Shown here one piece after another: positions 8,620-58,868 of a stretch of DNA of 64,000 nucleotides. The translations under genes were made by a program, and so were the position numbers. Where the stretch lies: NCBI RefSeq assembly GCF_000003815.2, contig NC_049989.1, positions 15,626,883 to 15,690,882 of the forward strand, read 5' to 3'. Under the pieces are notes generated by a model. It made no database searches. It saw only the letters and a list, made by a program, of their open reading frames with translations, and had not been told where the DNA came from. Position 1 is the stretch's first letter. Each line of letters opens with the position of its first letter. The stretch comes from Branchiostoma floridae (taxonomy: Eukaryota; Chordata; Leptocardii; Amphioxiformes; Branchiostomatidae).

Positions 8620-8719
8620 NNNNNNNNNNNNNNNNNNNNNNNNNNNNNNNNNNNNNNNNNNNNNNNNNNNNNNNNNNNNNNNNNNNNNNNNNNNNNNNNN
8701 NNNNNNNNNNNNNNNNNNN
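8620..8719. other. Assembly gap (100 N)
   Basis: Exactly 100 unknown bases, a conventional placeholder length. The gap removes the far end of the inverted-repeat element entering from the left (8408) and the near end of the one leaving on the right (to 8830), so two repeats probably meet here. Confidence 0.99.
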
Positions 8720-34700: not shown

Positions 34701-35286
34701 CTGGTCCACTGCGCTAAAAGGACAGTAAAACTGGTTAACGGATATGATCACAGTATCACCAAGAAATTGGAATTTCATTCCTCTCAAGTTTTTGTGAATC
34801 TGTAATGTCCTAGCCTGACATTAACATCAGACGTATGGACTGTTCCACATTTACATCCAGGAAGGGGGTGCCAGTCTGTAAGGCTGCAGTACATGAAAAT
34901 CTGTTAGGGGGCCCAAAATTGCCATGTTTTAGGGATTTCAATATCTACCCACATACTTAATTACATGTACTGTATCACAAATCCATCAAAAGTAGATGTA
35001 TCTTAAGTTATACATTGTAAGTGAAAACACACATTCAAACACAACCAAAAACAATACCCCCTATAGAAGTGAACTTCCTTACTGGAGGTAAAATGAGAAA
35101 TATTATTGGAGCCTTTTTTTACCAGTTCTATTTCCCTTGGGTTCGTTTCCTCAATCTTCTGGAAGCTTGTCAGGCTGGCATTGAACAGAGCAGTTGCAAG
35201 GGTAAGGCCTGAAGAAAGATATGTCATCGAGACTCTGTAATTTGTTTCTTTGTTGTTTGATTGGTCAAATTATCAGTCATTTTTTG

Positions 35287-35319
<33 letters not shown>

Positions 35320-38300: not shown

Positions 38301-41300
38301 ATAATTTGGGTTCACACAAGGTATCACATTCAACCCTGGATATCTTTATCTTAGTAGTAATTGTAAAGAGTGATTTATCTTGCTGTGACCTGACAGTGGC
38401 CCTGTGTTTGTCCTTGTTCAGTGTGTTGAGGGTTTTCCGCTCATTGATCCGGAGTGTCACATCCTGGAACTCTTTACAGCCGGCAACAGTATTGACCTGT
38501 GGTGACAGATATTGACAGTCCTCGAACACAATCCCTGCAGTGAGCATTGTGATCAGCAAAAGTGGATTATCCATTACAAAGGGATTATGTGGCGGCGTAA
38601 AGAGAGCGTAAAGGCATGCTTCATTCACTGATTTGGAGCAATTTCAATCTGCGAGTTCTAAATTCATGACACGTTTTGATTCAAATTTGTAATATGTCAT
38701 GTGATTTGCTTCAATGCCTAAGCAATATGATAAAGTATGGCACCTAGATATGACTGAATAATGGTTGTTTAAAACCATAACCGTACTGTAGATTAAAAAA
38801 TTCCCAGATGTAGTTATATACAGGCTGCACACAATTGTGGGGTTTTGTGGCATAACTATAAGCCTTAGGGTATTTGGTCCAGAATCCAGAGGTCCTTGGT
38901 TCGAATCCTGTCCTACTACCAATCTTGTGTCCTTGGGAAAGGTAGTTGACACGACTTTCCTAACTTATCGCCCAGATGTAAAGATAGGCACCTGACTTCT
39001 GTTGGGTAGGTAAAAGGCAGTAGAAGGATGTGTCTTTTTCTTCACCACGTACTTGAAAATTCTGTTGACCCTATTTTCCCTTTGATTGATTGATTCTGTG
39101 GGCTTTTTGACGAGAATGCAATAACTCCAATATGTGTGATATTTAACAAAAGATGACTGGTGTAATCTTATGATTTATAGCTTGGACAATGTACTTACCA
39201 GGTCACCAAGACTTTCCGTGCCTTCTAGACTGCTGAATTTGTTCATGGTGTCATACGTGATGCAGTATCTGGCCATCAGCCTTCCAACCTCTAGAAAGGA
39301 ATAAGAATGTTCATATCAACAGAGTTTAGGTTATTATTTCCAAAAGATATGAGAATCAATGGGGTCACTATAAGGATAACAGTACAGATATTTCTCTTAT
39401 GGATCTACATGTACCATGTACATTGTTGTAGCTACTGTCAAAGGAGAAGTGATTGTAGTGTTTTTACGTTTGCATTTTGCATGGTGACCTCTTCACTGCA
39501 TATACCTATAACCACTGTGAGCATTTCATTTTTATAGTAAAACCCTGCATATACCTATAACCACTGTGAGCATTTCATTTTTATAGTAAAATCCTGCATG
39601 GCAGTTTCAACTATGAAAACAATGTAAAACTAAAGCCAACACTCCATTTTCTTGCTACCACAAAGTTAAATCCCACAACATTTCCCCTTTTATGGTATAT
39701 TTTGTTAATGTACAAAAAGACACATAAATTGACTCCTAGCATCATAATAGGGTGGCACCAAATTCAAAGAATGTTCAGAAACAAAAGCTTGACATCAGCA
39801 AAATTCTTTTCAATAACATACTGTAAATGCATTTAAGTTCGCGGGGATTTTATTTCGCAGTAGCTGGAAAAATTACTTTTCACGGTGGTTTTAAATTTGC
39901 AGTAGCACCATGCACCATAGTCTCTTACTGCCATGGAAAAATTTTTGCGGTGGTTTTAAGTTCACGGTGGCCGCTTACCGTGAATATCAAACCACCACGA
40001 AAGTTTCTGCATTTACAGTTTCAGCATTACACATACTTCATGGTCATCCTGTGACATAACCTTGCCACAAGAAAACTTTCTCAAACTCAGCAATCAAAGG
40101 TGTTTAGAGTTACCCTTATATCAGATTCCTTGGAATGACTTGCTTTGAAACAGAGCCATAAGAGAGCAGAGGTCACATCATTGAGACCTTATACACATCA
40201 GAGATGAAATCAATAATAACATTGCTCAATGCTTAGTGTAATGTTGCGACCAAATGTCAGGGCTCGAAATACCACCTGCATATGCAGGTTAGTGCAGGTA
40301 AAATTGAAGCTGTGCAGATATCTCTGATGTCTACCTGCACCTAACCTGCACTGGTCCATGTACTGGGTTTTCTACATAAGTTTCCTTTGATTTAGATGTA
40401 TAGGGATTGTTACTAGCTGCATTGACTGTGACCACCTGTTAAGCATAAAAGAAAAAAATTGCAACGGTTCCTTAACAAGTTTAGTATGATTCGCACTTCC
40501 TAAATTCAGAGTGGTGCAGGTAAAATTTGTATGGTGCAGGTAATTTTCAATGTTACCTGCACCAGTGCAGGTATGCAGAAAAAAGTATATCCAGCCCTGA
40601 AATGTGCATTCTTATATATACATGTACGGCAACTTCCCTTGCTTCCCCAGAAATTCTCTATGCTAAACTGTTGACATTTGCTTTGACATGTTTGATCACC
40701 TGTGGGCTTGAGGTCGAATCCCTCCTCATCCATTTTGACCAGGTCAATCCGGGACAAAAGGTTTAGATCCTTGAGGCACATATCTGTAAAACACAGGTTA
40801 CATCAATTATGTCATATGGAAAAAGGCACTATGGTTGGGGTTAAGGTAACGATCCAACTGTTGTCAAGGGTTTCATAACTATACCCAGTAGGGTGACACT
40901 GCTCTTTAAGAGAGTTTTGATTGAAAGAATATCTGTTATGGATAGGTTACATCAATCATGTTACATGGGAAAGGGCATTAGGGAGAAGGTATGGATTCAA
41001 TAGTTGCAGTAGAGTGACACTTAGATCTTTAAGAGAGTCTTACACAAAATCTGTTATAGATAGGCTAAATTAATCATACAGGTACAGGCATTACAGGGAA
41101 GATACAGATTTCAATACCTGTTGTGGAATTCATAACCATACCCAGTAGGGGGACAGTGCTCTTTAAGAGATTTTTGATTGAAAGTTGATTAATCGTAAAT
41201 GTATAGGTTATATTATTTATGTCACATGGAAAAAGGCAAACTTTAAGGTAATTAAGGTAAGATCAGCCATATGTAAGATAAGAACAAGCGCACATCCGTT

Positions 41301-44300
41301 AGAAATAGAAAGGGGCCGCTATAAAAAGCTCCCTGTCCACGAGAGATTGTGTACATATTGCCCAATGAACGCAGTGGAAAATGAAACACATTTTATCAGT
41401 CAGTGTACCCACTATGAAACCGAAAGAAAAACTTTATTCCAAACAGTAGCCACTATTTCACCAAGCTTTTATCACCTAAACGATCACCAAAAGACTACAT
41501 TTCTACTAAAAGCTCAAAATCCCACCATCATACAGAACGTGGGACAGTTCATTAACCACTGCCTTCAAAGAAGAAGTCAAACCCGACAATAGTATTCATA
41601 GTATCATGTAGTTGATTAGACACTAGTCTTATGTACTTACCTCTCTTAGTTCTTGAGATTGTGTATGCAATTAGCCCTCGGGCATGATTTTGCAAATAAA
41701 CATTATTATTATATATTCAACTGTTGTTAATGAATATACCCATTAAGGTGATACTGCTCTTTTAGAGCATTTTGATCAAAACAAAAATTGTAATAGATAG
41801 GGTACATCAATTAATTATGAGGAAATAAAGGGGAAAGGCAGAGATTCAATACTTGTTGTGAAATCCATATTAACCATACCCAGACTGGCATTTTCTTTGA
41901 GGAGTTTTGATTGAAGCAAGATCTCTACCCCCACATTCCCATACAAGTACATCCACACTCCCATGAGATTCTATTGGAAGACACTAACAAGATTATGACC
42001 ACTATCTTCTGAGATTGAAGGCATTGGCATAATTGAATCTTAAACAATCCCTGTGCAAAAGAAGGTAGGACTAGATCCTTAAGCCTGTCTTTCTTTGAGA
42101 GTTTCACTCATCAATGATGAACCAACTTAATCAGTATCAGCCATGCTATGAAGTTTTGTACACAATGGCTTAAGCTGACACAAGATATGCAACCACCTTG
42201 TGTGACAAAGTTGTTACTGTATAAGCAATGCAAATTTCAAAGGCCCAATTCCATGACAGAAGGCGTGAATTTATGATTTTAATACACTAGTCTATACATG
42301 TACTAAATCTGTTTGATATTGAGTTCTGAAGTTTTAGCGGTTGGGGGCAAGAGACCGTAGTATACAGCCTTTAATTTCAGCGGCAAGAACAAAGTAGTAG
42401 GCATCAGCACAATAATGAAATGATTGCGATAAAGAAATTTTAGAAGTTGAATAGTGATAAATAAAGTCAATAAATTCCTTTTATGTTACCAAATCAATAA
42501 TTACAGTATTCATCAAGCAAAAAATTACAAGGACTGCAAGTTGAGCCAAGATGCATTGATTCTATAACCTCGTACAGAAAACACATTAAACTACTCGGGT
42601 TTGCAACAAAGTTCTGCAAAGCCAACCTACATGTACAAATTATCAAGCTAATGTATCTTGACAAAAAGGTTTGGAAGTTTTGATGCAATTTGGGAAGTGT
42701 AGTGGAATAACTTGAAACTCAATGCCATGCACATGGCCTTACGAGGATGGTAAAACGAAATCCTTTGAAAGATTAACTAAGCATTCTGCAAAGCAAAAGC
42801 ATCAAGCACAGCTGCTGTGAAAAATAGTGGGCTTAGATTCTTTCAAGGATTGCAGCACAACAAATAACAGTTCCAAGTTTAAAGTCAACAGTAGATAATA
42901 CAGATGAATAGGTAGACTACCGCTATCTTCACCACATGTCCAACGAAATTCGTTATCCTGTAAATGAGAAGGTGGTAATCCTAGATAAGGAATGACAGAC
43001 TTAGTTGAGGATGCAAATAAAATGGAAAGTGGAAAGACCCTAGATCCAGGAACCTTTGTCTTTATTCCAGCCATGCCACTGACAGAAACTCTATTCGTGT
43101 GGTCATGTATATCTCTGTCTGTATTTTTACTTGCAATGGAAAACTATGCATTCACCATCACTAAGGTTTCAGCACTAAGGAGAGATCCCTTACCTTGTAG
43201 TCTACTCTCCATCTCCTCTCTACTCAGGCCAGTAGGGATATCTAGAGGGGAAAATAAGTCAGCAGTTAACAGTACAGTTCACTAGCTATCAGACTAAGCT
43301 TAGTGAGTATATTATTTCATAGTCTAGGTAGTTGTAGAGCAAATTATTACATTAATGGTACCATGTTCATGAACACTGGACCATCTGAAAAACTGCTAGG
43401 ATGCAAACAAAGGTAAATGGATAAAATACTGTTTTGTTTCTAGAAAAGATATAACCAATAATTAGCAACTGTACCAGATTGCAACATAATATTGTTGTTG
43501 TTGGATGTCCCTTGCTCATAATATTATGTTATTCAAATTATTGCTTAGTACGTAGAATTTGAGATTTATCAACAATCTGTACTCCTATTGTGTAGGTTGT
43601 AGTTGACTGTACAAAAGTCACTGTACTTTTTCAAGTGCCAATAAAGCTTGTTCTTCACAATGCCAAAGTTAAGAAGACCACAGTAAGCAGAAAATGCATA
43701 AATGAATAACATCATAATCCTTAGGTAAAATCAATAATTGTTTTCAACAAATCAAAATGATCACGGTGCTTACGTTGGCTGTATTTAAATTAAATATCAA
43801 TAGCATTGCATTATTGCCACTTAACATCCTAATCACACATTCACATCTGGATATGACTTCCTAATTTCTATTTCCATCTTTGATCAACCAAGGATTTTCC
43901 ACTAAACATTCATGAATTATATATCAAGAAATAGCATACTGTAAATGCATAAACTTTTGCGTTGGTTTAATGTTCGCAGTTTTTGCTGTGGCCTTTTCAC
44001 CGCAAACTTAAAACCACTGTGAAAATTTTTCCATAAGTACAAGTAAGAGACTACAATACATGGTGCTATTGCAAACTTAAAACCACCACAAAATGTTCTT
44101 TTTCCTGTCACTGTAAAATTAAATCCCTGCAAACTTAAATGCATTTACAGTACTTCCAACAGCATTTAGTCAACCACTGCACTGTTAATGTATTATACAC
44201 ACACATCTCTTAGATGTTCGCATCATCAGAAACAAGTAGATCATATACATGCCCATTAAGATACAACCCTTGGGGAGATGTGTTAACATTATGACTTATG

Positions 44301-47300
44301 GGCCATCTGGAAAAAATGCATGCTCCAATACTAAATGGTGAGCAGTGTTAGTGACTGGAACAAAGACAGATGACTGCATAATATTATTTTCCTTGCAATC
44401 ATATGAATCCAGATGGTTGGATAAATACAGCAATGATGTGTTATTCCTGATTTCATCACTTATATATCCTCCATATATCATTGCTTTTTTGTTTTATAAT
44501 TAAAAGAGGCATGGTTTATACTTATAGGTAGATATTTGGATTAAGAAAAACAATTTTTCCTACATTTTCAGGAATATCTTAACACTCCATCATACATACA
44601 GTATGATGTATGACTTTTATGTATAGCTGTATAATGTAGATCATGTATTTCAATCCATTTAGAGTTTCACTTCATTGATTGAAGACGTTATTTGTCTTTT
44701 TGTGTAAGCTTCTAACAAATTTCAGAAAATGATTTTGATTTGTTGTTAGTTACAATGCATTATAATTCTCATATGTACATTTCAAGAAACTTAATTCTCT
44801 GTAAATGTAGGAGGTTTGGTACAATTCAATACTTTTTCATAGACATTTGATCTGTTTCTTTCATTACTGTAAATGCAGTGGTTTAATGTTTGCGGTTTTC
44901 GCGGTGACCGCTTCACCGCGAACTTAAATCTACCACGAAAATTTTTCCATGGCAGTAACAGACTATAGTGCATGGTGCTACCGCGAACTTAAAACCACCG
45001 CGAAAAATCCTTTTTCTTGCTAACGCGAAATTAAATCCCCACATACTTGAATGCATTTAATTTTCTTTAGTACTTACCTTTATACCATGTATATACAATG
45101 CTCCTATTCCTAAGTTTTCGTCCACCCACAAAAATAAGGTTTGTGTGATAGGACAACGAGACTCCACAGCTATAATAGATTCCAATACCAGACTAGACAG
45201 AGGGTCCACAAACTTACTTTTATTATTGATAAGAAAAAACAGTGGCCTTACTATAGTGCCTTGGGTTCTTCTGCACACGGATGTACAGGAAGGTAGAGCG
45301 GATCCACTCCAAGGCCACTGTGACATCGTTGATGGTGTGCAGCACGATCTCCGCATTCAGGTGTTCAATCAAGTTCTTGTGCAAGCTGGAGATTGAAATT
45401 GATTAAGTGTTTAACTTTAAGTTCTTCTCCTTCATTCATGTCAGGTTCCAGTTATTTGAATACTATGGGACAGTGGGAGTAATAACCTATGGCATGTTCA
45501 ACACCTAATGTAGGTTGTTAGAGTAACTGTGCAGAAAACATGGCACCATGGCTGTAGTACAATGTTAAATTTTCTTCCAACACAAAGGTATACACGAATA
45601 ATCAAATTCTTCAGGATCAATACTGATGACCAATCACTTCAGAATGTAAACTTTTGAGAGATACAGACACGTGATCTTATTAACACTTGAGGATACGTGA
45701 TGTCAGCAAATGGTCAAACATGCCAGGAAGTTTAAATGCCCACCATCTCTATGCAGTGATGGCTAGAATGCCCTGATGTATATGGCCTCCTTTATACATG
45801 TACTCTTAAAAAGCATTGTTTCTGAAGAAGGCAACAGTGGTCAATGAAAATTAAATCCATGCATATTTTTGTGTTGGAAGAAAGTTTAGCATTGTACTAT
45901 TACTACCAACACAGATGAGCTTTCATGATAAGACCATGGTTGTTTTAAAGACCCTGGGTCCTTGGACAGAAATCTGCATGTTTCGACGTTAAAATATCAC
46001 ACAGATAAGATTAATTTTCTGTGTTCGTTTCCTGGCTCCCTTATTTATCTGCTAAATCAAATAGAGAAATTTCAGTCGTCAGCTTGTAATGGATTAGTTA
46101 ACTAGTGATTGAAGTAGAACTTTGTCAGGGTCAATTTCCAATACCATCAATCATATATAAGTTAAATGTCAACAATGTCCCAAGCTTGGCTATGTATGAC
46201 ATTAACCTTTCGCTGTTGACTTTCTAATTGGACTACGTACCACAACCATGAACTTGGGACACGTGCAATTAATCTATAAACGTTCCGTGACATGGTCGTG
46301 TTGCATATGCAATAAATAAGCCAAATTCAAAATGTCTATCAAGGGTGTCGTTAAACGTACCTGCTCTCAATTATTTGTGTTCCATTCACCAAAGCTTCAT
46401 ACTTGGCCTATGGAAAAGAGGTAAAGGTACATGTACAAATGTATAAAACTATTAGAGGGTAAAGGGAAGGGAATGTTATTTTCCAATTAATATAAATTTT
46501 AGGAAGTAATAAATGCATACTACTTCTCATTATACGATAAAGTACCCATTTGCCCCACGCGCCACCACATCAAAAAGGATTCCGTCTTCTAATAAACTCC
46601 CCAAGTACCCTCTAATCAATCTAAGCATATGGATGAATGGGGCCAGTTCTGGCCTATGCACATACATACATACGTATTTGAAAAAAACACTTCCCTCTGG
46701 AGTGGAATGCCCCTTTAAGGTCCCATAGCCTTTTTGAGGCTTTAAGAGCAATGGGTTGTTAATCCACTTTGTCTCAGGCATGGTATGGAGCTCAACCCTT
46801 ACCTTCCACAATAAAAAAACAAAAACATACCAAAGAAGATCTATGCTAGTTATATATATCATACTTCATCTTTCATATTTCACACCCTGCTTTCAGTCCA
46901 GGCTCATCTTTTATCACAGCAATGCAAACATATCTTTTAATATTGTGTATAATGGCACGTTATGAAGAAAACAGTAATGTGTAAAACTGTGCATGTACCT
47001 TTGTTTGATTCCTTGTCATGATAACAGCTGTCGCACTTTGGTCAAACTGTGAAAAGTAAGACAAAGATATGTCGTATCTGGTTGTACACAGTGTGGAGTA
47101 CAAGAAAGGGGTCTGAATATTACACAGTGAAGCTCGCTGAAAAAATTAGTCATTCAATGCAAGTTAAGATGTAGCATCACTGCAACAATTGCACTTCATC
47201 TGTGCATCAGTAGAGGGCATCACACAGAAAGGCTTTTGTGTCTAGTTTTGTATTTGCAAACTACTAAATAAATGAGAACAGTATGAGTGAAACAAGAAAA

Positions 47301-50300
47301 AGAATTGGGAATTCCAGGTATCCTCCAAGACCTGTTTTTCGTCAAATCAATTGAGATTCTTAAGTTAAGTACCTTACTTGATCATAAGAAAGTTGTATAA
47401 CAATGTGAATTATCATAGACAGCAATCTGACACTACAACAATGGACTTGGTTTGATAAAAATTGATACAGCTTGCCAGGCATCTACGATTCTTTACTCGA
47501 GTCAAGTGTCCCTAGGTCACGTGCTCAGAGTAATCAAATCACCACTCCTGATGAAGGTCAACGGATATGCAACCAAAAATTCTAGGTGAGCAATTTGTTG
47601 TATTGAATGACCGTTAAAAACTTCAATTATCAAGCTGGTGCCTAATTGGTTTAAGCCACTGTGACCAATATCTCTGCACTGACCTGCGGCCTGCCTGCCC
47701 TGCCAATCATCTGCAGCACCTGGAGCTCCGAGTACTCCTCGTACATTCCACAGGTGTAGTGGAGGGTGGACTTGATGATGACCAGGTGTGCCGGCAGGTT
47801 CACTCCCATGGCCAGGGTACTGGTTGATACTGATAACAATGCAAAGGGAGGGAAACTAATTCAGCCATATTTAAGGTTCAAAGCAGCATTTGTCATAGAG
47901 TGAATGTTTCCTAATAGTGGCAGTGAATGGCCAAATGGCTAGCAAAATGGGATGAGATTGAGAGGTTGAGTGGTCATGGGTTCAATTCAAGGCATTTCTG
48001 GCTAGATGTTGTGTCATTGGGAAAGACACATGATTTTCATCACTCCATTCAGATGTGGAATGAGTTCCTGACTTTGGTTAGAGAGGTAAAAGGTGGTGGA
48101 AGAAGAGGGATGGGCTCTGTCATATCATGCCCGAGACACAGTGGTTAACACACTGCCCCTACAGCCTCAAAAATGCTATGAGATAACTATCATACCTATA
48201 CCTTTCTTTTGCCAAAGGTGGACAACACAAACACATGCACACAAACACACCATTTGCTAATGTCATCATTAAATAACTACTGTCTATTCTCAAATTGATT
48301 TCCCTAACAACCGACAGCCCTGACAAAAGAAAAGTTACTGACTCTGATACTTACTCAGCACAGGTATGTCCCCCTGAGTAAAGGCTGTCTCAATGCCCTT
48401 TCTGTCTGTGGGTTCAAGCCCTGCATGGTGGTATGCCACCCCAAATAGGACAAGATCTGAAACATAGTAAAAATGTAGCAAAAATCATCCAATAGACTCA
48501 AGATATTAGTAAAGTTTCGTCACATTTTCTATCGTCTATGAAAAGACTGACTCACACTATCCCATAGAAGGCAGATTAAAAGGTATAAATCTATTTGAAA
48601 GCAGACATCTTGATCAACACCATTCATGAACTACAGTTTAGAATGTGCAGATATCATTGATCCATGACTTTTTCTCCTGCAGTACCAAATCAATTTGATA
48701 GGAGGCAGCCCTGCTACCACTTGAATGTGTAGTGTGAACATAAATGTAACAGAATACCATAGGCTACATTTGTATACTTTCAGCACAATATCCTGGCATC
48801 TTATAAAACGAAAAAAACTACAGCAATGAAAGAAGAAAGGACACTAGCTTGAGTTAACCTTTAAGCATTGAAATACTGTAACACGACAATGTAGTTCACC
48901 AGTCACTAGCAATCACATGTCTGACCTTGGTGCTGAATATATAGTGAAAACTACTTTTACTAAAGACAGAGTCTAACTGTTAACATATGGTCAAAAATGC
49001 TGCATTTGAATGACAAATGAAGGTTACCTCTCAACTTGTGGTCCCTGAGCATGTTTGCAACTTTTTGTAGCCTGAGGAAAAAGACAATTCTGAATAAAAT
49101 AGAGCTCACATCTACGATCAAAAGACAGCAAACAGAATGTAGCAATTGTAGCAATTTTAGTTCAATATACAATACAGTAAAATAATGTTGACTTCTCAGT
49201 AATGAACAAAACTGCCATATTCTGAATATAAAAATTCTTTGTAAACAGCCAGATGTTATAATTATAAAACCAATGTTTCAGTTATCGTCAAGCATCTTCC
49301 AACAATAACTGGTTCAGAGTGTTACTATTTATATAATGTTTAGTATACATAGAATGTTAATACAGTGTAATATTCTAGTTTTGACATCTAAGAGTAAGTG
49401 TAGGGCTGGACCTTTGTTTGTGTGCAGCATTCATCACAAACTTGGCATCTTTCACCAACATAGATGCACACTGTACTGAGCCTTTCCTCGTAGCACAGAA
49501 CTGGAAGCAAAGCAAATGATTTGCCATACACTCAAGTATTGATACCAGATTTGCTTTTGTTGCCCTTGTACATGTAGATGACTTTAGAGATGAGACATTC
49601 TTATTTATGCGATGTACTCATGTTTAATTCTACATAAACAGTGTTAAATGTTCAACATCACTTCAGTGTTAAATCAATTTTCATGTGTGAACTACTTGTT
49701 GATGGGTAAGTATGCTTCTCATATAGTGAAGTCTAAATTCGACTCAACAAAGCTTAACATTCAACTATACTTGAATGACTAGGAAAACAAAAGGTTAAGA
49801 TAAAAAAAAAACACCCTCAACTAATATGAAGAATAATTCTTTTTCAAGAAGCTAATAGTAGTAGTGCAATGGGATGTTTTTAGCAATAATGACTTGGAGT
49901 TCAGTTGTTGTATGCCATGCTTACATGTACATGCATTGTGTTAAGGATATGATTCATTGGGACTTACCACCAGGGTAGGCTTCTGATCAGAGTAGGTCTG
50001 GATCACACCTGGGATCTTGTAGTTGAGAGACAGATCAAACCTAAACTCAGAGCTGCCTGAGGAGCAGGGGTAGCCCAAAATAACCTTCCTCAGTTTTCAC
50101 AGGACGGTAGCTTTCATCCATTCTGGAACAAAACAGCACACAATAGGGGTTTACTACCATCTATCAACAGAGACAGGGGGCGCCATAAACTCTCTGCAAC
50201 TTATGATCCACTGCCCACAGGGTCATATGTTCTACATGCATAACATCATATCACAGAAGCAGTGGATAGTGCTCATCCCTTAACAAAGACTGGAGTTGCA

Positions 50301-53300
50301 TGGACAGTCAAAAATTTGGGTTAGATTTTTGTGTTGGAAAGTACAGGGAAACTTTGATCCAGAATTATGTACATCATTATTTGCACATGGACAGAAATTG
50401 AGGAGCATAACACAAAATGTCATGAACAAGAAAGAAAAGTACTACAATAACATACTTGTGGTAGATTGCAGTGGAACCTTCTTTCCCAAGCCATGCTGCA
50501 ACCTGTCAATATGAAAATAAGTCCACTTGACATAGACCAACAGCTACTGTGTTGGTGTAAAACAAAACAAAATGATATAACTGTCAGTGAACAGAATGAC
50601 GCTGAAAAAAATCATTTAAGAACATGAACTAAGTCTTCAACATATGATGTAGCCTTGATGCCAGCATTTCTAGCTTTTGCAAACTCTTCGTCGCTCCCTG
50701 CACAATATTCTTTCTGTCTGTCATTTGGATACTTGTTTCAATGAGCTTGTTAGCGTGACACCAATCTTTTTTGCCAAAAGTGACCAAGAGAGCATACTAA
50801 AGCAAAAAAGCCTGGCATATGATCATCAATGAGCATATGAGCAAAAATATTGCTGTCTGCTATATCTTAGCATCATTTTAGTTTGGATCGGAGAGGGTCC
50901 TAGGACAGATTCCGATCGCAATCTGTACTAGTAGAATCAATGATTGTCCTCAGACAGATCCCGATCGCAGCCTGCCCTAGGACCAACTCCGATTGCGATC
51001 TGTCCTTGGACAATCGTCAATTCTGCTGGATTGTGATCTCTACTGTGACATATACATACATCCTCCACATTAGGAATGGTAGCCGACACAGCCACAAATC
51101 TGATGCCGGCTGCAGACTGGGCCCTTGCTGACTCGTACTGAGAGTTGGTGACGTTTTCCCTCCCCACCACTGCCTGGATGGTCTTCATTCTGCTGACCAC
51201 AGCCTCCATAGTGGCACCTCTGTTCTCATCACTGATCAGATGAACCTGAAAGTAGTGATGGTTAAAGTACCAAATTAAAAGTAAATACCCTGAAGTAAAA
51301 AAAGACAATGACTCAACTGGTAGTAGCCTTATAGTAGGCAGGGCTCGAAATACTGGGTGCATGTGCATCCAGGTGCACCCAAAATTGGAGCTGTGCACCT
51401 ATTTTTTTTCTTATGTTTATGTATGTAAAGGTATCAAAGTATACTAGTATATATCATATTCGTAACATCTAAGTGTTAGAAAGATAATAAAAATGTCTGT
51501 CATGGTACTTGTTTAAGAATTTGATAGCCTGTAACTAAGTTTTGTTATTAGGTTATTACTTAAATTTAAGTAGTGCAAACTTTTTTGGTGCACCCACCAA
51601 TTTTTCAAGCTGGGTGCACCAGTGCACCTAATCCCAAAAGTGAATTTCGAGCCCTGCAGTACGGCTCCTGGCTGTGATAAGTTGGCAAGTGGGAGAACAT
51701 GGTTCAACAATGGGTAGGGCAACTCGGTTGGGGACCTGCGATCTGTCTGCGTACCTCATCAATGAGAAACAGCCGAACCAGCTGCACCAGAGACTTGTTG
51801 TCTCTCCACTTCCTTGTCATACTGTCCCACTTTTCCTGCAAAATACACAATGTCATGTATGTTTTTCAAGAAAATATGCAACAGGAACTAATCTAAATCA
51901 CATTGAAATATACATATTGATGACAATGGGGATGTCCCTGTGGTTCAGATGGTAGCAGCACAGTTGAGCTTCCAAATACTTGTCAATGATGCATGCTATA
52001 TGACTGGGAGACCCTGGTTCAAGTCCCAGGGTCCAGACATCTCAGTTGGGGTTGTACCATCTTTTGGAAGGGACATAAAATGTGGGTCCCATGTGACAAT
52101 TTTCCTCTTTCCAACCAGGTAGCGGAGATGGAGAGGTATGGGTTCCACCTCCCAATGTATGCCCTAGGACGTCTCAGTTTGGGCTGCATGTTAATATTTG
52201 GAGGGGAAGTAAAATGGGGTCCTGTTTTCAAGGATTTTAAAGGGGATGGGCTAGCTATCCTTGTAATGAAATACCATGGTACCAAAACAGCAAGGAAACT
52301 AGCTAACTTATGTGCCACTAGGCAATGCAATTGTGTAAATGACAACAACAAGGTAGTGTCAACATTAAGTTAGTACACATTATCTATACTTACAGGTGTT
52401 GTCAGGACTATGTGACAGTCTCTCAGCTGGTAGTAGTCATCAATCTCAGAGTCACCGGTCAGTTCCTGGCACTTCAGCCCCAGAGGACCAAACTTCTCCA
52501 TCCAGTCTAGGTACCGCTCACTGCACAGGGCCTTCATGGGAGCCACTAACAGAGATTCAGGAAAATCTGTCTTTCATTAAGTTCTCAAAAACTGTGTCAG
52601 ATCATCCTCCTACGCAGGGGCATCAAACAGCGAAACCTCCTGCCTGGATGTACCCTGCTCTTTCAACTGTCACCCTTTGTTCCTGACCATCCTGCGTATG
52701 AATATTAATGACCTTACCCTTATATATGTGAGACCCCTTTGATTTTGACAACTGAAAGGCCTATTCTCTGAGTGGCTGACAGCTTCTTTTTTTTTTGAGG
52801 GGGGTGGGGCGTCCACAGGAACTAAGAGTGACGGTTGAAAGAGCAGGGTACATCCAGACAGGCGGTTTCGCTGTTGGATGTACCTGCGTATGAGGATGTG
52901 TCAGATTGAATCCCAGCTTTTTGCAAACTGAAATTGTTTTTAGATTTTTCTTAACCAGACACTGTAGTAACTTTTTAAGTAGCAGACTCCATTAATGATT
53001 ACAAAATTTTATGTAGCAAGTGGCAAGTCAGAGCTGGAAGGGCTTGAGGGGCTTGCCTTAACTAAACCATGAAATGATACTGATTGGATATCATCTTCCA
53101 TTGCATATACTGTCATTGGTGTACTCTGATTCTAAACAGCTTACAGAAATTTTTCTGTGTTTTGTTGAGTGCAATCAGCTAATTATGATAGACAAAGATG
53201 AACAGTACTCACTGTAGACAATCTTGGCATTGTATATAGGAGTGTTGCCCAGCCTGACAAGTAGCCTGATGATGGCCAACTCAAAGATTACAGTCTTGCC

Positions 53301-55955
53301 CGATCCAGTTGGTGCACACACAACAAGAGGCTTGTCTGTATACAACACCTAAACAAAGGAAGCATGAATTCTTAATCTTATAGTACACAGATAGCTGATT
53401 GCAGGGTATTATTACCTCCTTGAATAATGGAGGTATTGTTTCTGGTGTTTCTGTGTGTGTGTGTCTGTGTATGTGTCTATGTGTTGTGTTTTCGAATATT
53501 TGTGGTCAGCATAACTTATTAAGAACCTATGGATATATTGTCATGATGATGCTTGGTATGTGGGTAGCTATATATATATCATATATATAAGTCTTCTGAA
53601 GACAAAGGTCAAGGTTGAAAATGTGCCTTCTGGTGGCTGACCTTGGTACTGCAGCAGAATTTTCAGTTTTTGTATCTTTCTTCCTGGAATACACTAAGTT
53701 CCTTACTTCCTAAACATCTCTTTATACAAAACTTACATCATCCAAGACTTTGGACTGCACAATGTTGAAGTAGGGAAAAAAACTTTCTAAACATCGCTTT
53801 ATACAAACTTACATCATCCAAGACTTTAGACTGCACAATGTTGAAGTAGGGAAAAAAACTTTCTAAACATCTCTTTATACAAACTTACATCATCCAAGAC
53901 TTTAGACTGCACAATGTTGAAGTAGGGAAACTCCTTGAAGACAGGCCTGAACTGTTCAGCTTTGACATGATGATTAAGGATGGAATCATATGCAATGGAA
54001 GACATTACACTAAGTCTTTTTCTATCTAAAACTAAGAGTCAAATTACAGTATGATCTTATTTTTCATTCTGTGAACTTGCACTACCATCATATATCTTAA
54101 TGAATCAAAGTCTGGCACACAAGTTGATCTTAACTGTCCCCAAATGAACAGTTACTGACAATGAAAATTTCACAGATTTGGCAAAAGGATACGAATCTCA
54201 TGGACTGATCTCAGTTGTCGTGTTTCACCTGTTGTTGTCCCTCCTGGAGTAACACCTGCAATATAGAATTTGATGTTATCTTGGTTACAGACATTCTACC
54301 ACATTTGTCCTTGACTAAAAAAACCTTGTGTGGGATATTTTCTATATAATATATAAGCTATTGGAAAAGTATTTGGCTAAACTACCTCAGTACACCCGTT
54401 GTTTCATGTTAATAATAATAGGTTGCCAGACGTAAGCCTACTAAAATTCTCGAAGAAATTAAAGACGACAAATTTGAAATCAAGGGAGAGGGACTTACTT
54501 GGAATAGTGAGAGGCCTGGGTGTGCTGCCATAGAGTTGCCTGGTGAGACGATTCCTCGAGGGCTGTGTATTTGATTCCGCTTCTGACTCAGATAGGATAC
54601 GATCATGTTGCAAAGGACCATATCTCACAGGTGTTGTATTAGAGAGAGAAGGCTGTCTACCCTGGGGCATACCCCTTTGTTGAAAGATATGCTCAGACTG
54701 TGGGAACTGTCTTGTCTCATCTGTGAGTCTTTCTCCTGGGACATACTCTGGATGAGTGGAAGGCTGATTGCGCCCTGCTATACTGGGATTGGTGGCAGCT
54801 CTAAATGGAGGTTTGAATAATGGCCTGCAAAGACAAATTAAAAGACTAGTCAAACAACATTTTCCAGAAAATGCTGGATGTTTCACTCCTAGTACTTTGT
54901 TTGTTGTCAAGCACACAATATCATCATTAGGCTTGCCCTTGAGGAGTCTCAAAAAAAAATAATTAAGCTCGCCTCTTAAGTTTTGCCCAAAAATACTTTA
55001 TGCAACTTGATTCATTTATGGAATTACTACTGTAACAATCTCAAACAAGTTTTGTGAAACTTTTTGGCATTCAACAGAATAAAGACATAGTGCAATTCAT
55101 ATTGACAAAATCAGCAAAAACAATTCCCTATTTGCACACATAATAAACATGCTATATTTTATAAAGTAATGCACCTATTGTATATTACATGTACATAGTC
55201 TAGACTTGCCAAAGTGACCCCTAACACTCTCTAAATTTCATATTAAGGATTCCAAACTAACTGTGCTAAGTACACTTCAGGTAACAGTCTGAGGTAACCC
55301 AGTACCTTGCACTTCTGTAGGCAGCAACACCTTGAGGTCTCTGAGACAAAGTCAGCTCCTTCTGGATGGAGGCTTGACTTGGCGGAATAACGTCATCATC
55401 ATCATCATCCAAGGAGGTAATTTGAGACAGCAAAGTAGGAACATCATCAGTCAGATCATACTGGATATTATTTCTGAACCGTGTACTCAACATTTGGGAA
55501 CTTGGACACCCTTAGAGAAAGATACAAAAATCAAACAAAAAATCTCAAAGCTTTCAATTTCTAGTTTCATTTATTATAATAATTGTGAATTCCTGATCAA
55601 CTGCTTTCTTCTATGCATTTTCCTGTCTACAATATGCATCTTTGGACCTAGGTGAAGGCAACCTTCATATCCTTTGGAAACAACTTTGGAACCAGGCCAA
55701 TCCAATTTTCCCATCATGCCAATCTCCAGTTACAGTGATCTTCTGCCTCCCATCCTGTCACTTTACAACATTCAAATAACTGTGGACACACAGGACAAAC
55801 AAATATACAGACCCAAAACCATATACCTCCATTCAACTTAGAGCTTGCAATTCTGATTTTCTATCAGTTCCTTTTGTGCTTCCATTAAAAGAAACTGATA
55901 GCAAATTGCATTTGCATGTATTGGTCATCATGGAAACTACTATACAATGTATGAG

Positions 55956-56006
<51 letters not shown>

Positions 56007-58868
56007 AAATATTGTAAAATATGTATGTAAACTTAAGTTGATGATGACACATTTTTACCTTGCTGTCTGTCTTCAAATTGAGACAGTGGTCCCTGAGATG
56101 CTTGAAGCAGTTGTGTGGAGGGAAACTCATCCATGGATGAAGGGGGTGGGGGGATACTGCAGCTGTATTGTGATTCTGCATTCTTCCTGTCAATAATCAT
56201 CACAGGTGTTATTTTTCCATGCCACTCTAATTTTTTATGTTAATAATTGAGACATAATTAATGATGTAAAATATTAATATGACAAATGTATTGCTGTTTT
56301 TATTTTAATTTTCTCAATACAAGATGATGTAGTCTCATAAAATACACTTATTTTATTTGTGGCATGTTAACACTACATACTGTACAAAGAAAATGGTCTG
56401 GTTCTGTGTGTATAGTGTATCCTCTTTCTTCAGAATAAAAAAAAACTAGAATAGTAGAAATAATAAGACCAGGAGCGTGTGACATTCAAAAACATTAAAT
56501 TTCATGTTTTATTTACACTGGAAAACTCAATCTACTACACTTCATCTACAACATATTGTTATATAATTATAATAGCCCTTCAGTGTAACATACATGTAAC
56601 GCTGGTTCACCTTTATCTGAGGGTAACCTCTATTCGTTGTTTGTAAGATAAAACATATTTATTACCTTTGCCAGAATGGCTAAGGTTATGTTTTAGGCTT
56701 GTGAGTCTGTGTGTGTGTCTGTGTGTGTGTGTGTTAACAGCATAACTCAAGAAGTCTTGGATGAATCCCGATAATATTTGGTAGGTGGGTAGGGTTCGGG
56801 AAAACGAAGGTCAAGTTCGATAATGGGCCTTCTGGCGGCTTGCTACGGTACTGCAGCAGAATGTCAATTTTTGATATCTCGTGTTCTGGACATGCTGTGG
56901 TTATGATTTTTGAGCGGTAGATAGCCCTTGGGGCAGAGAGTAAGTACTATAAGTTTAGACCCCCTAGCGGCTTGTTTGGAACTGCAGTCGCCGATTTCCT
57001 TTCAAACTTTGGACGAGAATAACTCGAGAGCGTGTTGATGGATCGTCACGATTTTTAGTATGTAGATAGCCCAAGTAACAATGTACATTATGAAATACAA
57101 ATTATGCAAATCAGCAACTAATTTGCATAATTAATGAGGAAAGTTTATAAATCCGCTGCATTTCATGATAGGACTTTCAAACTTGTCACATATATAGATG
57201 AGAAAGAGAGAAAAATCAATCCATATTAATTATGCAAATGACGACCTCATTTGCATAATTAATGAGAAAATATAAACGTGTTGACGGATCGTCATGATTT
57301 TTGGTATGTAGATAGCCAATGGGAAGACTTACATGATGGAATTCAAATTATGCAAATCAACAGCTAATTTGCATAATTAATGAGGAAAGTTTGTAAATCC
57401 ACTGCATTCCTTTATAGGACTTTCAAACTTGTCACATTTGTAGCTGAGAAAGAAAGAAATATTTATATATATTAATTATGCAGATGATGATCTCATTTGC
57501 ATAATTAATGGCAAAATATGAACATGTTGACGGATTGTCATGATTTTTGGTATGTAGATATCCTAAGTAACAACTTACACAATGAGATAATAATTATATA
57601 AATTAACAATTTGCATAATTAATGCGGAAAGTTGATAAATCCACTGCATTCCGTGATAGGACTTTCAAACTTGACACATATGGAACTGAGAAAGATGGCA
57701 GAGAGTAAGAGGTGTATGTTTGGGTCCGGTAACATCTTTTCTTGAACTGCAGGAGCCGGTTTAGTTTCCTACTTTGAAAGAGAATAAGTCAAAAAGGGAT
57801 GAAAGGATCATCATGATTTTTGGTATGCTGATAGCTTAAGTGATGCTTGATACAATTTAATATCATTATGTAAATAGGGATCTAATTTGTATAAGCAATG
57901 GCGAAATGTTATGACCCAACTCCGGGCATATAAAATAAAATGTAATGAGTAACACATTTATGTCTACAGACATCATTCTACATAACAAACCTGGTTTATT
58001 TGGCAAAGGTATGTGTTCGTGGAACTCTAGTTTAGGGATATGAAGTTGACAGACGGTGGTTTCAAATTGGAACATTTTGAAAATATTGCAGATTTGAAAC
58101 CACTGTCAGCAGACCTAATAGTCCTAAATGTGTTGTTTTTAAAGACAACGGATAAAGGTCACCTCACGGATAAAGGTGAACTAGCGTTACCAGCTTTGCA
58201 GGCATGTGGCATGGCAGGTGCTGATAGTATTACACTGAACAACCTAGCATAACTGAACTTTGCACATCTTGTAAAAGGCAAGTTTTTATTAGGATGCTCC
58301 TAAAAGTACAGTACATTATCGGGTCATTCTCCTACAGCAGAGTACCGTCAGTCATTTATTCCTGACTGTACTCTGCTTTCCTTCCCTTTTGCCGGCGGTA
58401 TTACCCGCCCTACTTATTAGATATTAATGAGCTTGCCCTTATATGGGCAGTCAACCGTTGGGGATCGGGCGTTGGCATGGTGAGCAAACAAAGTCATGGT
58501 AATACGTAACATGATTGGCTGATAGCTTCCCAGCGGCCTTTGCGACACAGCTTGCGACAACAACAAGCCCAAGGATGGCCTGTTCTCTGATTGGTTGACA
58601 GCTTGTTTGTGGCGACAATCATAATACCCGTAGGTAGGGCCTGGGACAGCAGGGCCCCATAAGGTAGTGCCGTTGGGGACCGGGCGTTAGGAGGATGTAT
58701 CGGGTGGCCGTGATGTACAACTGACAACACTGACAACACAGAGCTATCTATCAACATGCTGACGTCACTGTTAAAAACATGTTTATCGCATTGTGAATCT
58801 TTTATATACCTGTTATTTTCTGCATCACTATGTCCAAAGAAGAAGGAGTCAATGAAGTCGTCCTGCAT
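14821..58868 (-). CDS. HFM1: HFM1 / MER3-type meiotic DNA helicase, 42 coding exons
   Basis: Nuclear 3'-5' superfamily 2 (Ski2-like) DNA helicase that stabilises recombination intermediates for meiotic crossovers. I joined 42 GT-AG exons whose phases all fit, from ATG 58868 to TGA 14821-14823, ~1687 codons (human ~1435). Order: acidic N-terminal region; RecA1 with APTGSGKT (~296-303), TTP, DEVH (~406-409), SAT; RecA2 with FCATRKG (~537-543), [22 protein letters not shown] (~654-663); winged helix and Sec63-like ratchet (~665-1115); Cys/His zinc motif (~1161-1176); long acidic, Ser/Pro-rich tail ending SIFAGIF, like the human end. Exon boundaries split the domains as in vertebrate HFM1. Exon 12 has a one-base insertion. 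Divergent from the gene at 59942. Exon coordinates are in the block entries. Confidence 0.96.
16192..16395. mobile_element. CTGTAAATGCA inverted-repeat element, copy 2
   Basis: Same family as 5048-5257, diverged (GTTTGCGGTGG, CAAAGCCACCGCGAACA). Lies in the HFM1 intron between exons 40 and 41. Confidence 0.82.
18921..19155. mobile_element. TAATACCCCTGT inverted-repeat element, copy 2 (reverse orientation)
   Basis: Starts AATACCCCTGTCACATTATC, ends ATGTGACAGGGGTATA; opposite orientation to 2129-2365. It sits 35 bases past the HFM1 exon 37 donor, inside the intron. Confidence 0.85.
19730..20455. repeat. ~340-base tandem duplication
   Basis: Two copies (about 19741-20053 and 20080-20455) share CACATGCCAAAGACTTTCAT, GCAGAGATTAAGGAATGG and TTAAAAGCAAACGGGATT at ~90% identity. 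The second has an ATC microsatellite (20106-20129) inserted. No open frame persists in both. Confidence 0.85.
20724..21000. repeat. ~142-base tandem duplication
   Basis: AATCAATTGATGGAAACTCA, CCATATAAAAGGCCGTTTTG and TCTGGGAGCCTAAAACTGAT recur 142 bases apart, nearly identical. Each holds a short dispersed terminus described in the findings. Confidence 0.9.
22090..22290 (-). mobile_element. LINE fragment (CR1/L2-like reverse transcriptase C-terminus)
   Basis: Reading the minus strand from 22285: [20 protein letters not shown], then [18 protein letters not shown], a typical end of a CR1/L2-type reverse transcriptase, then a stop. 5'-truncated. Confidence 0.78.
22811..23250. mobile_element. 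GGGTACCGGTAC inverted-repeat element, copy 2, exact 8-base duplication
   Basis: TAGGGCTGGGTACCGGTGC to GTACCGGTACCCACCCCTA, flanked by ATCAATAT on both sides (22803-22810 and 23251-23258). Reverse orientation to copy 1. HFM1 intron 34. Confidence 0.9.
23495..24379. mobile_element. Fold-back element with ~0.4 kb inverted arms
   Basis: TACGAGGGGGGTTCAATAAG at the left and its complement at the right. The two halves pair over most of their length around a centre near 24000; the left arm carries ~120 extra bases. Terminal TA and GGTTCAATAAGTTCTTGGCC recall mariner-type ends (inference). HFM1 intron 34. Confidence 0.85.
24802..25000 (-). CDS. HFM1: HFM1 exon 34 (predicted from phase and a GC-rich patch)
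   Basis: Between exons 33 and 35 a segment entering at phase 0 and leaving at phase 1 is required. This patch fits: acceptor CATATCTCCCAG, open frame [20 protein letters not shown] then [20 protein letters not shown], 199 nt, donor [16 protein letters not shown] recalls human VDLKEFGFTP, which follows the same KRLK. It is distinctly GC-richer than the surrounding intron. The GTTAGT donor is unusual, so the 3' edge is less certain than the rest. Confidence 0.72.
25672..26125. mobile_element. GGGTACCGGTAC inverted-repeat element, copy 3 (decayed)
   Basis: Left end TAGGGACCAGTAC, right end GTACTGGTACCTCCCCCTA; interior matches copy 2 (AGAGTTTATAGTCAATTGTAC, CAGGTCCAGGTTCAG). No clear target duplication. 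Confidence 0.75.
27071..27657. mobile_element. CCCTTCACACGA inverted-repeat element, copy 2
   Basis: Starts GGCCTTCACACTGAAAACGA and shares with 7505-8026 the words AATGCCTTCAGAATGAAAA and CCAAATGGACCTTATATCCC in opposite orientation. Ends 25 bases short of the HFM1 exon 33 donor. Confidence 0.75.
27682..31482 (-). CDS. HFM1: HFM1 exons 29-33: end of Sec63-like region and zinc motif
   Basis: Exons 31325-31482, 30402-30505, 30042-30139, 29112-29184, 27682-27917. Exon 29 has [20 protein letters not shown] and exon 30 [20 protein letters not shown], both matching vertebrate HFM1 without gaps. Exon 32 encodes an acidic stretch ([18 protein letters not shown]). Exon 33 carries the zinc-binding signature [16 protein letters not shown] (Cys ~1161, 1165, 1171, 1175, 1176; His ~1163, 1173), then [10 protein letters not shown] and MKRLK as in vertebrates. 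The donor of exon 29 (GTTTCTAC) is weak but the protein alignment across it is ungapped. Confidence 0.95.
28217..28438. mobile_element. CTGTAAATGCA inverted-repeat element, copy 3
   Basis: Opposite orientation to copy 1 (starts with the GGGATTTAATTT side), HFM1 intron 32. Includes the conserved GCACCATGCACT centre-flank. Confidence 0.8.
28465..28985 (+). mobile_element. LINE fragment (CR1/L2-like reverse transcriptase C-terminus and 3' tail)
   Basis: Plus-strand frame 28583-28810 ends with a reverse-transcriptase C-terminal signature: [20 protein letters not shown] and [18 protein letters not shown], then stop. The 3' end carries GATTAGCCCGTAAGGGCTAA and a repeated AATAAACAACA tail, as in CR1/L2 elements. 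5'-truncated and lies inside HFM1 intron 32 on the opposite strand. Confidence 0.85.
30295..30347. repeat. AATG/ATGG microsatellite
   Basis: Short run of GGAT then AATG units in HFM1 intron 30, ending 55 bases past the exon 30 donor. Confidence 0.9.
30539..30749. mobile_element. CTGTAAATGCA inverted-repeat element, copy 4
   Basis: Starts ACTGTAAATGCA 34 bases upstream (in transcript sense) of HFM1 exon 30; ends TGCATTCACAGT. Its edge lies within reach of the branch-point region of intron 29. Confidence 0.83.
31187..31244. repeat. Near-perfect 26-bp hairpin
   Basis: Stem TACAACATCATTCAACCAAA with complement, 21 uninterrupted pairs around the loop CTCGGT, extended by AAAC/GTTT after one mismatch. 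HFM1 intron 29, ~80 bases past exon 29. Confidence 0.9.
32344..32711. mobile_element. AGGCCACACCAATT inverted-repeat element, copy 2 (reverse)
   Basis: AAGGCCACAGCAATTTTATT to AATAAACTTGGTGTGGCCT; interior ATGGGCCTCAAATTCCAGTA and TACCAGGGACCCCCTAAATG match copy 1 reversed. HFM1 intron 28. Confidence 0.82.
33256..45385 (-). CDS. HFM1: HFM1 exons 19-28: winged helix and Sec63-like ratchet domain
   Basis: Exons 45252-45385, 43194-43241, 40700-40783, 39199-39290, 38390-38496, 37487-37534, 36191-36288, 35665-35793, 35123-35208, 33256-33339. Landmarks: [19 protein letters not shown] and [14 protein letters not shown] (exon 19), [15 protein letters not shown] (21), [16 protein letters not shown] (22), [18 protein letters not shown] (23), the 48-nt exon 24 [31 protein letters not shown] (25), [16 protein letters not shown] (26), [17 protein letters not shown] (27), [13 protein letters not shown] (28). 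In Ski2-like helicases this region forms the ratchet that pulls single-stranded DNA. Introns here hold most of the tandem arrays described under findings. Confidence 0.95.
35285..35644. repeat. GATT-rich simple/minisatellite array
   Basis: ~360 bases of GATTGATTG and GGTTGGTT variants with interspersed longer repeats (CTCTATCAATTGATTGGTTG twice). Ends 20 bases past the donor of HFM1 exon 26 (35665), in transcript sense just inside the intron. Confidence 0.95.
36415..36840 (+). mobile_element. Penelope-like element fragment with decayed GIY-YIG endonuclease
   Basis: The plus strand near 36422 reads [28 protein letters not shown] and then a stop: the GIY-YIG core (VYxIxC ... YIGET ... R). The following sequence ([12 protein letters not shown] in another frame) is diverged. 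A related 3' segment occurs near 50165-50335 (GCAACTTATGATCCACTGCC, AATTTGGGTT). Confidence 0.78.
37531..37990 (-). repeat. Tandem array of ~155-base units beginning at the exon 24 acceptor
   Basis: Unit starts at about 37531, 37683 and 37840; shared words AAAGACAATTG, TCCTTAAG, AGACTTCTTCAT, TTCAAGATTAAACTT. Unit 1 overlaps the last bases of exon 24 and its polypyrimidine tract. Confidence 0.8.
38846..39035 (+). mobile_element. tRNA-derived SINE
   Basis: Contains a perfect RNA polymerase III B box, GGTTCGAATCC (38898-38908), followed by the SINE-body words TTGTGTCCTTGGGAAAGG. Not a functional tRNA: no cloverleaf. HFM1 intron 22. Confidence 0.7.
39496..39593. repeat. 49-base perfect tandem duplication
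   Basis: CTGCATATACCTATAACCAC through TTTATAGTAAAA occurs twice in a row with one substitution, HFM1 intron 21. Confidence 0.92.
39820..40019. mobile_element. CTGTAAATGCA inverted-repeat element, copy 5
   Basis: Clear terminal repeats ACTGTAAATGCA / TGCATTTACAGT in HFM1 intron 21. Confidence 0.85.
40258..40605. mobile_element. AGGGCTCGAAAT inverted-repeat element, copy 2
   Basis: Starts CAGGGCTCGAAATACC and ends CCAGCCCTGAAATG; inside ACCTGCA/TGCAGGT words replace the GTGCACC words of copy 1 in the same layout. HFM1 intron 21. Confidence 0.75.
40796..41930. repeat. Tandem array of ~120-145-base units, interrupted by a LINE
   Basis: The word GGTTACATCAATYATG with GGAAAAGGC and CATACCCAGTAGGG recurs at about 40796, 40943, 41062, 41206 and (past the LINE at 41240-41715) 41798. 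Begins 12 bases upstream of the exon 21 acceptor. Confidence 0.82.
41240..41715 (+). mobile_element. LINE fragment with zinc-knuckle-like end and ATT tail
   Basis: The frame closing at 41590 holds [31 protein letters not shown] and SQCTHY, the Cys/His pattern (CxxC...HxxxxC) at the end of many non-LTR retrotransposon proteins. The 3' tail CAATTAGCCCTCGGGCATG is followed by AATAAACATTATTATTATA. Inserted into a HFM1 intron tandem array. Confidence 0.82.
43938..44151. mobile_element. CTGTAAATGCA inverted-repeat element, copy 6
   Basis: ACTGTAAATGCA to TGCATTTACAGT with TA on both sides, HFM1 intron 19. More decayed GCGG core than copy 1. Confidence 0.84.
44866..45060. mobile_element. CTGTAAATGCA inverted-repeat element, copy 7
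   Basis: Well-preserved left arm and CACCGCGAACTTAAA core; right end truncated at AATGCATTTAA. It lies 192 bases beyond the HFM1 exon 19 donor, and only 700 bases from copy 6. Confidence 0.82.
46361..49500 (-). CDS. HFM1: HFM1 exons 13-18: RecA-like domain 2
   Basis: Exons 49412-49500, 49028-49071, 48355-48456, 47684-47829, 46999-47046, 46361-46407. Exon 13 opens with motif [22 protein letters not shown]. Exon 15 has the conserved [14 protein letters not shown] stretch. Exon 16 carries motif V ([16 protein letters not shown]) and motif VI ([10 protein letters not shown]), the arginine-finger element. Exon 17 continues [16 protein letters not shown] and exon 18 [15 protein letters not shown], leading to the winged-helix part. 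All phases agree. A tRNA-derived SINE sits in the intron before exon 16 (about 47922-48150). Confidence 0.96.
47922..48150 (+). mobile_element. tRNA-derived SINE
   Basis: GGGTTCAATTCAAGG (B-box-like) then TTGTGTCATTGGGAAAGACA and AGGTAAAAGGTGGTGGAAGA, body words shared with 38846-39035. HFM1 intron 15. Confidence 0.7.
49968..50502 (-). pseudogene. HFM1: HFM1 exons 11-12, with a one-base frameshift in exon 12
   Basis: Exon 11 (50456-50502) reads [16 protein letters not shown]. Exon 12 (49968-50122) begins MDESYRPVK; past the run of four A (plus-strand tttt 50094-50097) the family match continues in the next frame, [12 protein letters not shown] onward to QKPTLV. Removing one A restores the expected length (154 nt) and the phase needed by exon 13. 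As written, translation stops at TGA 50047-50049, about 15 codons later, before RecA2. Everything downstream is intact, so an assembly error or a rare allele is likelier than a dead gene. Confidence 0.88.
50165..50335 (+). mobile_element. Penelope-like element 3' fragment
   Basis: Matches 36690-36830 word by word (CAACTTATGATCCACT, GCAGTGGAT, AACAAAGACTGG, AAAATTTGGGTT). No coding content remains. It lies between HFM1 exons 11 and 12. Confidence 0.65.
51060..53959 (-). CDS. HFM1: HFM1 exons 6-10: RecA-like domain 1
   Basis: Exons 53889-53959, 53213-53348, 52394-52545, 51755-51835, 51060-51245. Exon 6 reads [20 protein letters not shown] (Q-motif area). Exon 7 carries Walker A, APTGSGKT. Exon 8 carries motif Ia ([13 protein letters not shown]) and ends HIVLTTP (motif Ib). 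Exon 9 ends FLIDE and exon 10 begins VH, so the intron splits the DEVH box between E and V. Exon 10 ends [13 protein letters not shown] (motif III). All catalytic motifs for ATP binding and hydrolysis are intact. All donors are GT. The donor end of exon 6 is duplicated in tandem just downstream (53711-53940). Confidence 0.96.
51343..51656. mobile_element. AGGGCTCGAAAT inverted-repeat element, copy 1
   Basis: GCAGGGCTCGAAATAC to ATTTCGAGCCCTGC; between them GGGTGCACC words mirrored on both sides. CAGGGCTCGAAAT ends are typical of hAT-type elements. HFM1 intron 9. The ORF overlapping exon 10's upstream side is a shadow. Confidence 0.8.
51928..52265 (+). mobile_element. tRNA-derived SINE
   Basis: TGTGGTTCAGATGGTAGCAG (A-box-like) followed by GGTTCAAGTCC (B box, 52016-52026) and a body with GGGACATAAAATGTGGGTCC. 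HFM1 intron 8. Confidence 0.7.
52603..52898. mobile_element. CATCCTCCTACGCAGG element with 8-base duplication (hAT-like MITE)
   Basis: ~75-base terminal inverted repeats (CATCCTCCTACGCAGGGGCA ... / revcomp CATCCTCATACGCAGGTACA ...), flanked exactly by TGTCAGAT (52595-52602 and 52899-52906). It begins ~57 bases upstream (transcript sense) of HFM1 exon 8. Confidence 0.9.
53711..53940 (-). repeat. Tandem triplication of the exon 6 donor region (77/76-base units)
   Basis: Units begin at 53711, 53788 and 53864. The last runs into the real exon 6 (53889-53959). Each contains the final ~43 bases of exon 6, the GTAAGT donor and ~30 intron bases; the extra two copies lack the exon's acceptor side and have A-rich tails in place of CTCCTTGAAG. 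Confidence 0.93.
54193..58868 (-). CDS. HFM1: HFM1 exons 1-5: N-terminal region
   Basis: Exons 58810-58868, 56059-56186, 55306-55510, 54499-54824, 54193-54255 (781 nt). The start [20 protein letters not shown] has a purine at -3; an upstream ATG is followed at once by a stop. The region is polar and acidic (a run of Asp in exon 3 beside DDVIPPSQ; many Ser/Gln/Pro in exon 4) and probably disordered; human HFM1 also has a poorly conserved N-terminus. Exon 5 ends LRSVHEI, leading into the helicase entry segment. Intron 1 (2.6 kb) contains A/T-rich repeats, an opposite-strand small ORF (58040-58252) and a dispersed element near 58320-58700. Confidence 0.88.
55962..56003. repeat. AT microsatellite
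   Basis: About 42 bases of uninterrupted AT dinucleotides, 56 bases past the exon 2 donor of HFM1. Confidence 0.97.
56990..57815. repeat. Tandem array of ~245-base AT-rich units in HFM1 intron 1
   Basis: The word CGTCATGATTTTTGGTATGT recurs (variants) at about 57044, 57287, 57536 and 57810; the A/T-rich TTTGCATAATTAATG with ATTATGCAAAT surrounds each. A distant relative (GTGTGTGTCTGTGTGTGTG, TACTGCAGCAGAAT) extends to 56700 and also at 53400-53660. Confidence 0.85.
58040..58252 (+). CDS. Orphan 70-codon ORF in HFM1 intron 1 (opposite strand)
   Basis: ATG-to-TAA frame, [20 protein letters not shown] ... [18 protein letters not shown], with less biased, coding-like composition than its A/T-rich surroundings. 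No intron, promoter or domain recognised. It may be a relic of a mobile element gene or chance. Confidence 0.25.
   Translation: MKLTDGGFKLEHFENIADLKPLSADLIVLNVLFLKTTDKGHLTDKGELALPALQACGMAGADSITLNNLA

Follow-up and report, generated by a model that had tools for sequence, protein, structure and literature searches.

The window analyzed here is a 64,000-nt stretch of DNA from Branchiostoma floridae (positions 15626883-15690882 of contig C11, in a genome of 513,431,437 bases and 431 contigs). Its minus strand carries a multi-exon gene whose reading frame changes once, at a run of four adenines. This raises the question of whether the gene is broken in the animal or only in its assembled sequence. 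Below, we discuss what the gene is, why we think that one base is surplus, and which of several explanations best accounts for it.

Identity and structure of the gene

To map the exons, we combined open frames with splice dinucleotides and family motifs, took human HFM1 as a guide, and checked the result by script. The mapping gave 30 exons (a to ad) between positions 56186 and 30042, comprising 3,332 nt. All 29 introns between them are of the GT-AG type, and their phases join throughout except inside exon k. Exons a to j (50460-56186, with exon j itself ending at 50456) encode the N-terminal part and the DEAD helicase domain, and exons l to ad (30042-49500) encode the remainder of helicase domain 2, the winged helix and the Sec63 domain; both sets are intact in frame. 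Exon k (49968-50122), with a length of 155 nt, holds the end of helicase domain 1 and the start of domain 2. Counted from exon a, the first exon supported, exon k is the eleventh; an earlier note on this DNA rightly placed the break inside one exon, but numbered that exon 12.

Eleven further exons (13142-30041) are predicted by an ab initio gene chain only. They include a Cys/His-rich stretch of 16 residues at 27864-27817 that matches no Pfam family and is a candidate C-terminal zinc finger. Thus, the statement in the earlier note that all other 41 exons are intact holds for 29 exons, for which family reading and phase agree, the 11 additional ones being predictions of the chain.

In Pfam searches, the 486-residue piece ahead of the break matched the DEAD helicase family (1.6e-31), and the 624-residue piece past the break matched Helicase_C (5.5e-13), SNRNP200_wHTH (8.4e-14) and Sec63 (2.7e-46), with the winged helix and Sec63 present as one stretch each after a single helicase cassette. 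The two helicase domains, which lie in two frames as assembled, contain motifs I-VI, including a presumed motif IV stretch, and the gene presumably resembles human HFM1. By this predicted domain order (DEAD, Helicase_C, winged helix, Sec63) it is a gene for a helicase of the HFM1/MER3 type, which bears out the name it had been given before. The best matches in the PDB were ASCC3 (1.8e-111), Brr2 (about 1e-109) and Hel308 (2.7e-45), and there was no named HFM1 sequence among the PDB matches. The lancelet ASCC3 and SNRNP200 genes were found separately, on contigs C7 and C4, and the Hel308 models of NCBIfam scored far under their cut-off against the gene (at most 109 bits, with at least 887 needed). 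No literature on HFM1 together with amphioxus was found.

Several other features of the window were recorded. The 3' end of exon e and its donor site lie in three tandem 76-bp copies (53705-53930; 96% matches), and the extra copies would permit in-frame mini-exons of 18 nt (SKVLDD), one of which was used by the gene chain at its laxest setting. A tandem repeat with a period of 246 and 2.7 copies (57031-57695) lies 5' of the gene. The plus strand has an open frame of 469 codons from stop to stop at 61042-62448, in which a tandem repeat of 72-bp units occupies 61497-61724; a 451-residue part of this frame gave no Pfam family above cut-off. The sole run of N in the window (8620-8719) is exactly 100 bases long and is therefore taken for a scaffold gap. 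No Rfam family or tRNA was detected in the window.

A single frame break in exon k

The case for a frame break, which we regard as confirmed at the level of sequence, rests on splice phase and homology. Firstly, exon k is bordered by TGTTCCAG|AATGG (50122) and CTGGTG|GTAAGT (49968), and its 155 nt equal 2 modulo 3. Exon j (50456-50502) ends two bases into a codon and exon l (49412-49500) starts in phase 0; these neighbours require a length of 1 modulo 3. Secondly, the family reading runs for 10 residues in one frame before the AAAA run at 50094-50097 and continues for 42 residues after it one frame on, so that the run holds one base beyond what the exon phases and the family reading call for. 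Thirdly, a structure search in which the query carried an X at the join matched 69 distinct PDB sequences, and the alignments of three of these were displayed. In all six displayed domain alignments, which represent four distinct domains (two of the three PDB sequences are the same Brr2 protein), the X faces a gap and RPVP-L is continuous. Since the relatives place the X opposite a gap, no residue is missing and one base is surplus. Exon phase and PDB alignments thus agree with the earlier proposal of a surplus base at this run, the removal of which would restore the phase for the next exon.

As assembled, the reading ends at a TGA (50047-50049) after 15 foreign codons, past helicase domain 1 and ahead of Helicase_C, the winged helix and Sec63; translation confirms what had been claimed for this stop, including its position before the presumed motifs IV-VI. 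No other frame break occurs in the 30 exons, and elsewhere neither an in-frame stop nor an odd splice site was found.

It should be noted that the 42-codon open stretch after the run carries little weight alone, because 1574 of 19159 intron positions (8.2%) have a stop-free stretch of this length. We also applied a dynamic-programming gene chain, trained on the mapped exons minus exon k, in 12 settings, nine of which allowed frameshifts. The chain placed no frameshift in these nine settings; codon statistics alone therefore do not show the break, whereas homology and phase do. In the setting printed in full, 27 of the 30 mapped exons were recovered exactly; the exceptions were exon k, exon e (different 5' end) and exon n (different 3' end). 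Having been trained on these exons, apart from k, the chain offers no independent proof of them.

We searched the same genome with a 245-residue protein query that starts just past the run and obtained 10 matches, five being exons of HFM1 itself and five being other loci with 40-53% identity; with all 24 candidates scored, no second HFM1 copy or leftover haplotype was seen. When exon j, exon k and the intron between them were used as a DNA query, the 40 of 1177 candidates that were scored gave 46 matches: one was the window itself, and the other 45 fell on a repeat within that intron. Given that 45 of the 46 matches hit this repeat and that only 40 candidates were scored, the DNA search says little about other copies of the exons. 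The repeat (50138-50370), which ends near the acceptor of exon k, is a dispersed one with at least 45 matches in the genome at 70-82% identity, and some of its genomic copies are neighbouring and in opposite orientation. Viral contigs searched with the 24 bases common to both versions of the run gave no matches.

Consensus error or null allele

The assembled sequence truly contains the frame break, but the animal most likely does not. In our view the surplus base is a one-base consensus error, and we put the probability of this at about 0.65; the error would lie in the four-A run of an otherwise intact HFM1, and the base would be absent from the animal. In support of this, 29 of the 30 mapped exons are in frame, the introns are of the GT-AG type, and strong Pfam domains are present on both sides of the break. 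According to PMC7269912, the published Branchiostoma floridae assembly was built from Sanger reads of one diploid animal at about tenfold coverage; its two haplotypes were first assembled separately, and a single reference haplotype was then obtained by merging them. If this is the assembly used here, the mean depth would be some 5 reads per haplotype, with one or two at some sites, and a consensus error is favoured because of this presumably thin depth per haplotype. The published method thereby tilts the choice toward an error rather than an allele.

The alternative that survives best is a recent, real null allele, heterozygous in the sequenced animal, in which the intact allele of the other haplotype supports meiosis. 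We consider it unlikely, but a serious candidate. The transcript would stop before helicase domain 2 and would probably be removed by nonsense-mediated decay. Such decay is expected for stops upstream of exon junctions, and is therefore expected here, where the stop lies ahead of 19 mapped junctions. Both this position and the intact remainder of the gene are in line with a null allele. Furthermore, PMC11563684 describes Hfm1-/- mice as sterile and the oocytes of Hfm1+/- mice as behaving like wild type, which means that one broken copy can hide. The high heterozygosity of amphioxus, given as 3.2-4.2% in PMC12862219, favours real variants in general and thus speaks against an error. On the other hand, a null allele should be rare in a gene needed for fertility, since selection would hold such alleles at low frequency, and PMC11563684 also mentions that human HFM1 variants have also been reported under a dominant mode, so that heterozygous loss may carry a cost.

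Rough figures can be put to this choice. Using the amphioxus point-mutation rate, which reads 5.89e-9 in the discussion of PMC12862219 and has another exponent in its introduction (indels are not estimated there), we arrive at null alleles with a frequency per gene of at most 0.1-0.2%. For consensus indels, at an assumed rate of 1e-6 to 1e-5 per base, the corresponding estimate is 0.5-5% per gene.

There are also points against an error. A run of four bases is not a typical error hot spot, and the mapped exons contain 22 runs of at least four equal bases, up to six long, among which only the AAAA run is out of frame. As a control for assembly quality, we inspected four ASCC3/SNRNP200 helicase cassettes from the same assembly, for which 24 matches above 58% identity were obtained. 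No neighbouring frame change was seen over 1,259 of their 1,443 residues, the other 184 being uncovered; two of the matches end in a stop, which was taken for an intron without proof. Errors are thus not rampant in this assembly, and the control bounds their rate only loosely.

Splice rescue, pseudogene formation and frameshifting

Alternatively, the four-A form might be real and common, with splicing restoring the frame through an acceptor at 50052 (or at 50088 or 50040), through a donor at 50101, or through joint skipping of exons j and k. All of these routes read free of stops. The acceptor at 50052 scores 3.6, compared with 2.4 for exon k's own acceptor, and was chosen by the gene chain in 12 of 12 settings, the frameshift-free ones included. 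Nevertheless, we judge such a rescue improbable. Every route would remove residues that are aligned in the displayed relatives, such as RPVP-L, at the junction of domains 1 and 2 or in domain 2. Within the CAGGCAG region of exon k (50051-50058), the acceptor-like AG before 50056, four bases ahead of 50052, scores higher (6.8) and would bring the reading to a stop, whereas the one before 50052 is in frame and would cost 70 nt. The other sites score -9.7 (50088), 1.4 (50040) and 1.7 (donor 50101). Moreover, exon k's own acceptor is no outlier, being the third lowest of 29 under leave-one-out scoring. The specific version in which the fourth A is real and frequent, and HFM1 spliced to 50052 works without the conserved stretch of about 23 residues that opens the second motor domain, seems to us a shade more doubtful still. 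Two further routes were rejected. An upstream acceptor giving the correct length cannot explain exon k, because it would read the post-run frame, in which a TGA (50098-50100) blocks rescue, and the skipping of exon k alone breaks the frame.

HFM1 might also be dead in Branchiostoma floridae, as a fixed young pseudogene. The protein search, in which no intact second copy was found, is compatible with this, but the 30 exons carry no second lesion (stop, frame break or lost splice site), and fixation would have to be very recent, in a gene that mice cannot lose without becoming sterile (PMC11563684); we therefore hold this to be very doubtful. We regard a programmed +1 ribosomal frameshift at AAA-A as the least credible of these mechanisms: a lysine tRNA could shift its pairing forward by one base inside the run, but the zero frame continues with ACT GAG GAA and no immediate stop, and the 126 nt downstream fold worse than shuffled sequences (z +1.09; 171 of 200 shuffles fold equally well or better). 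Finally, an old pseudogene is very unlikely, because several disabling changes would be expected and the 30 exons hold a single break; this agrees with the earlier note, which had opted for an assembly error or a segregating allele instead.

Implications and comparison with known systems

If the surplus base is a consensus error, as we favour, the annotation of HFM1 in Branchiostoma floridae is at risk, because simple gene prediction tends to pick the internal acceptor and to lose a conserved stretch; the gene should then be checked before it is used in comparative work on meiosis. If it is instead a real null allele, a basal chordate would turn out to harbour a naturally occurring mutant of a crossover helicase. 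Events of both kinds are common, and this one is best considered ordinary until reads say otherwise.

Like the lancelet gene, the HFM1/MER3 meiotic crossover helicases have one cassette (DEAD, Helicase_C) followed by a winged helix, a Sec63 domain and then a Cys/His-rich stretch, which in the lancelet gene is a prediction. PMC8383409 describes human HFM1 as a gene of 39 exons whose product has ATP-binding, C-terminal helicase and SEC63 domains and a zinc-finger motif. The difference is that the lancelet reading, as assembled, is cut by one surplus base in one exon. The Ski2-like helicases ASCC3, Brr2/SNRNP200 and Hel308 have the helicase core in common with lancelet HFM1, but ASCC3 and Brr2 contain two cassettes each, compared with one in the lancelet protein. 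With respect to the break itself, the locus resembles the frameshift errors and loss-of-function alleles of reference assemblies, in which a conserved gene is likewise intact apart from a solitary indel.
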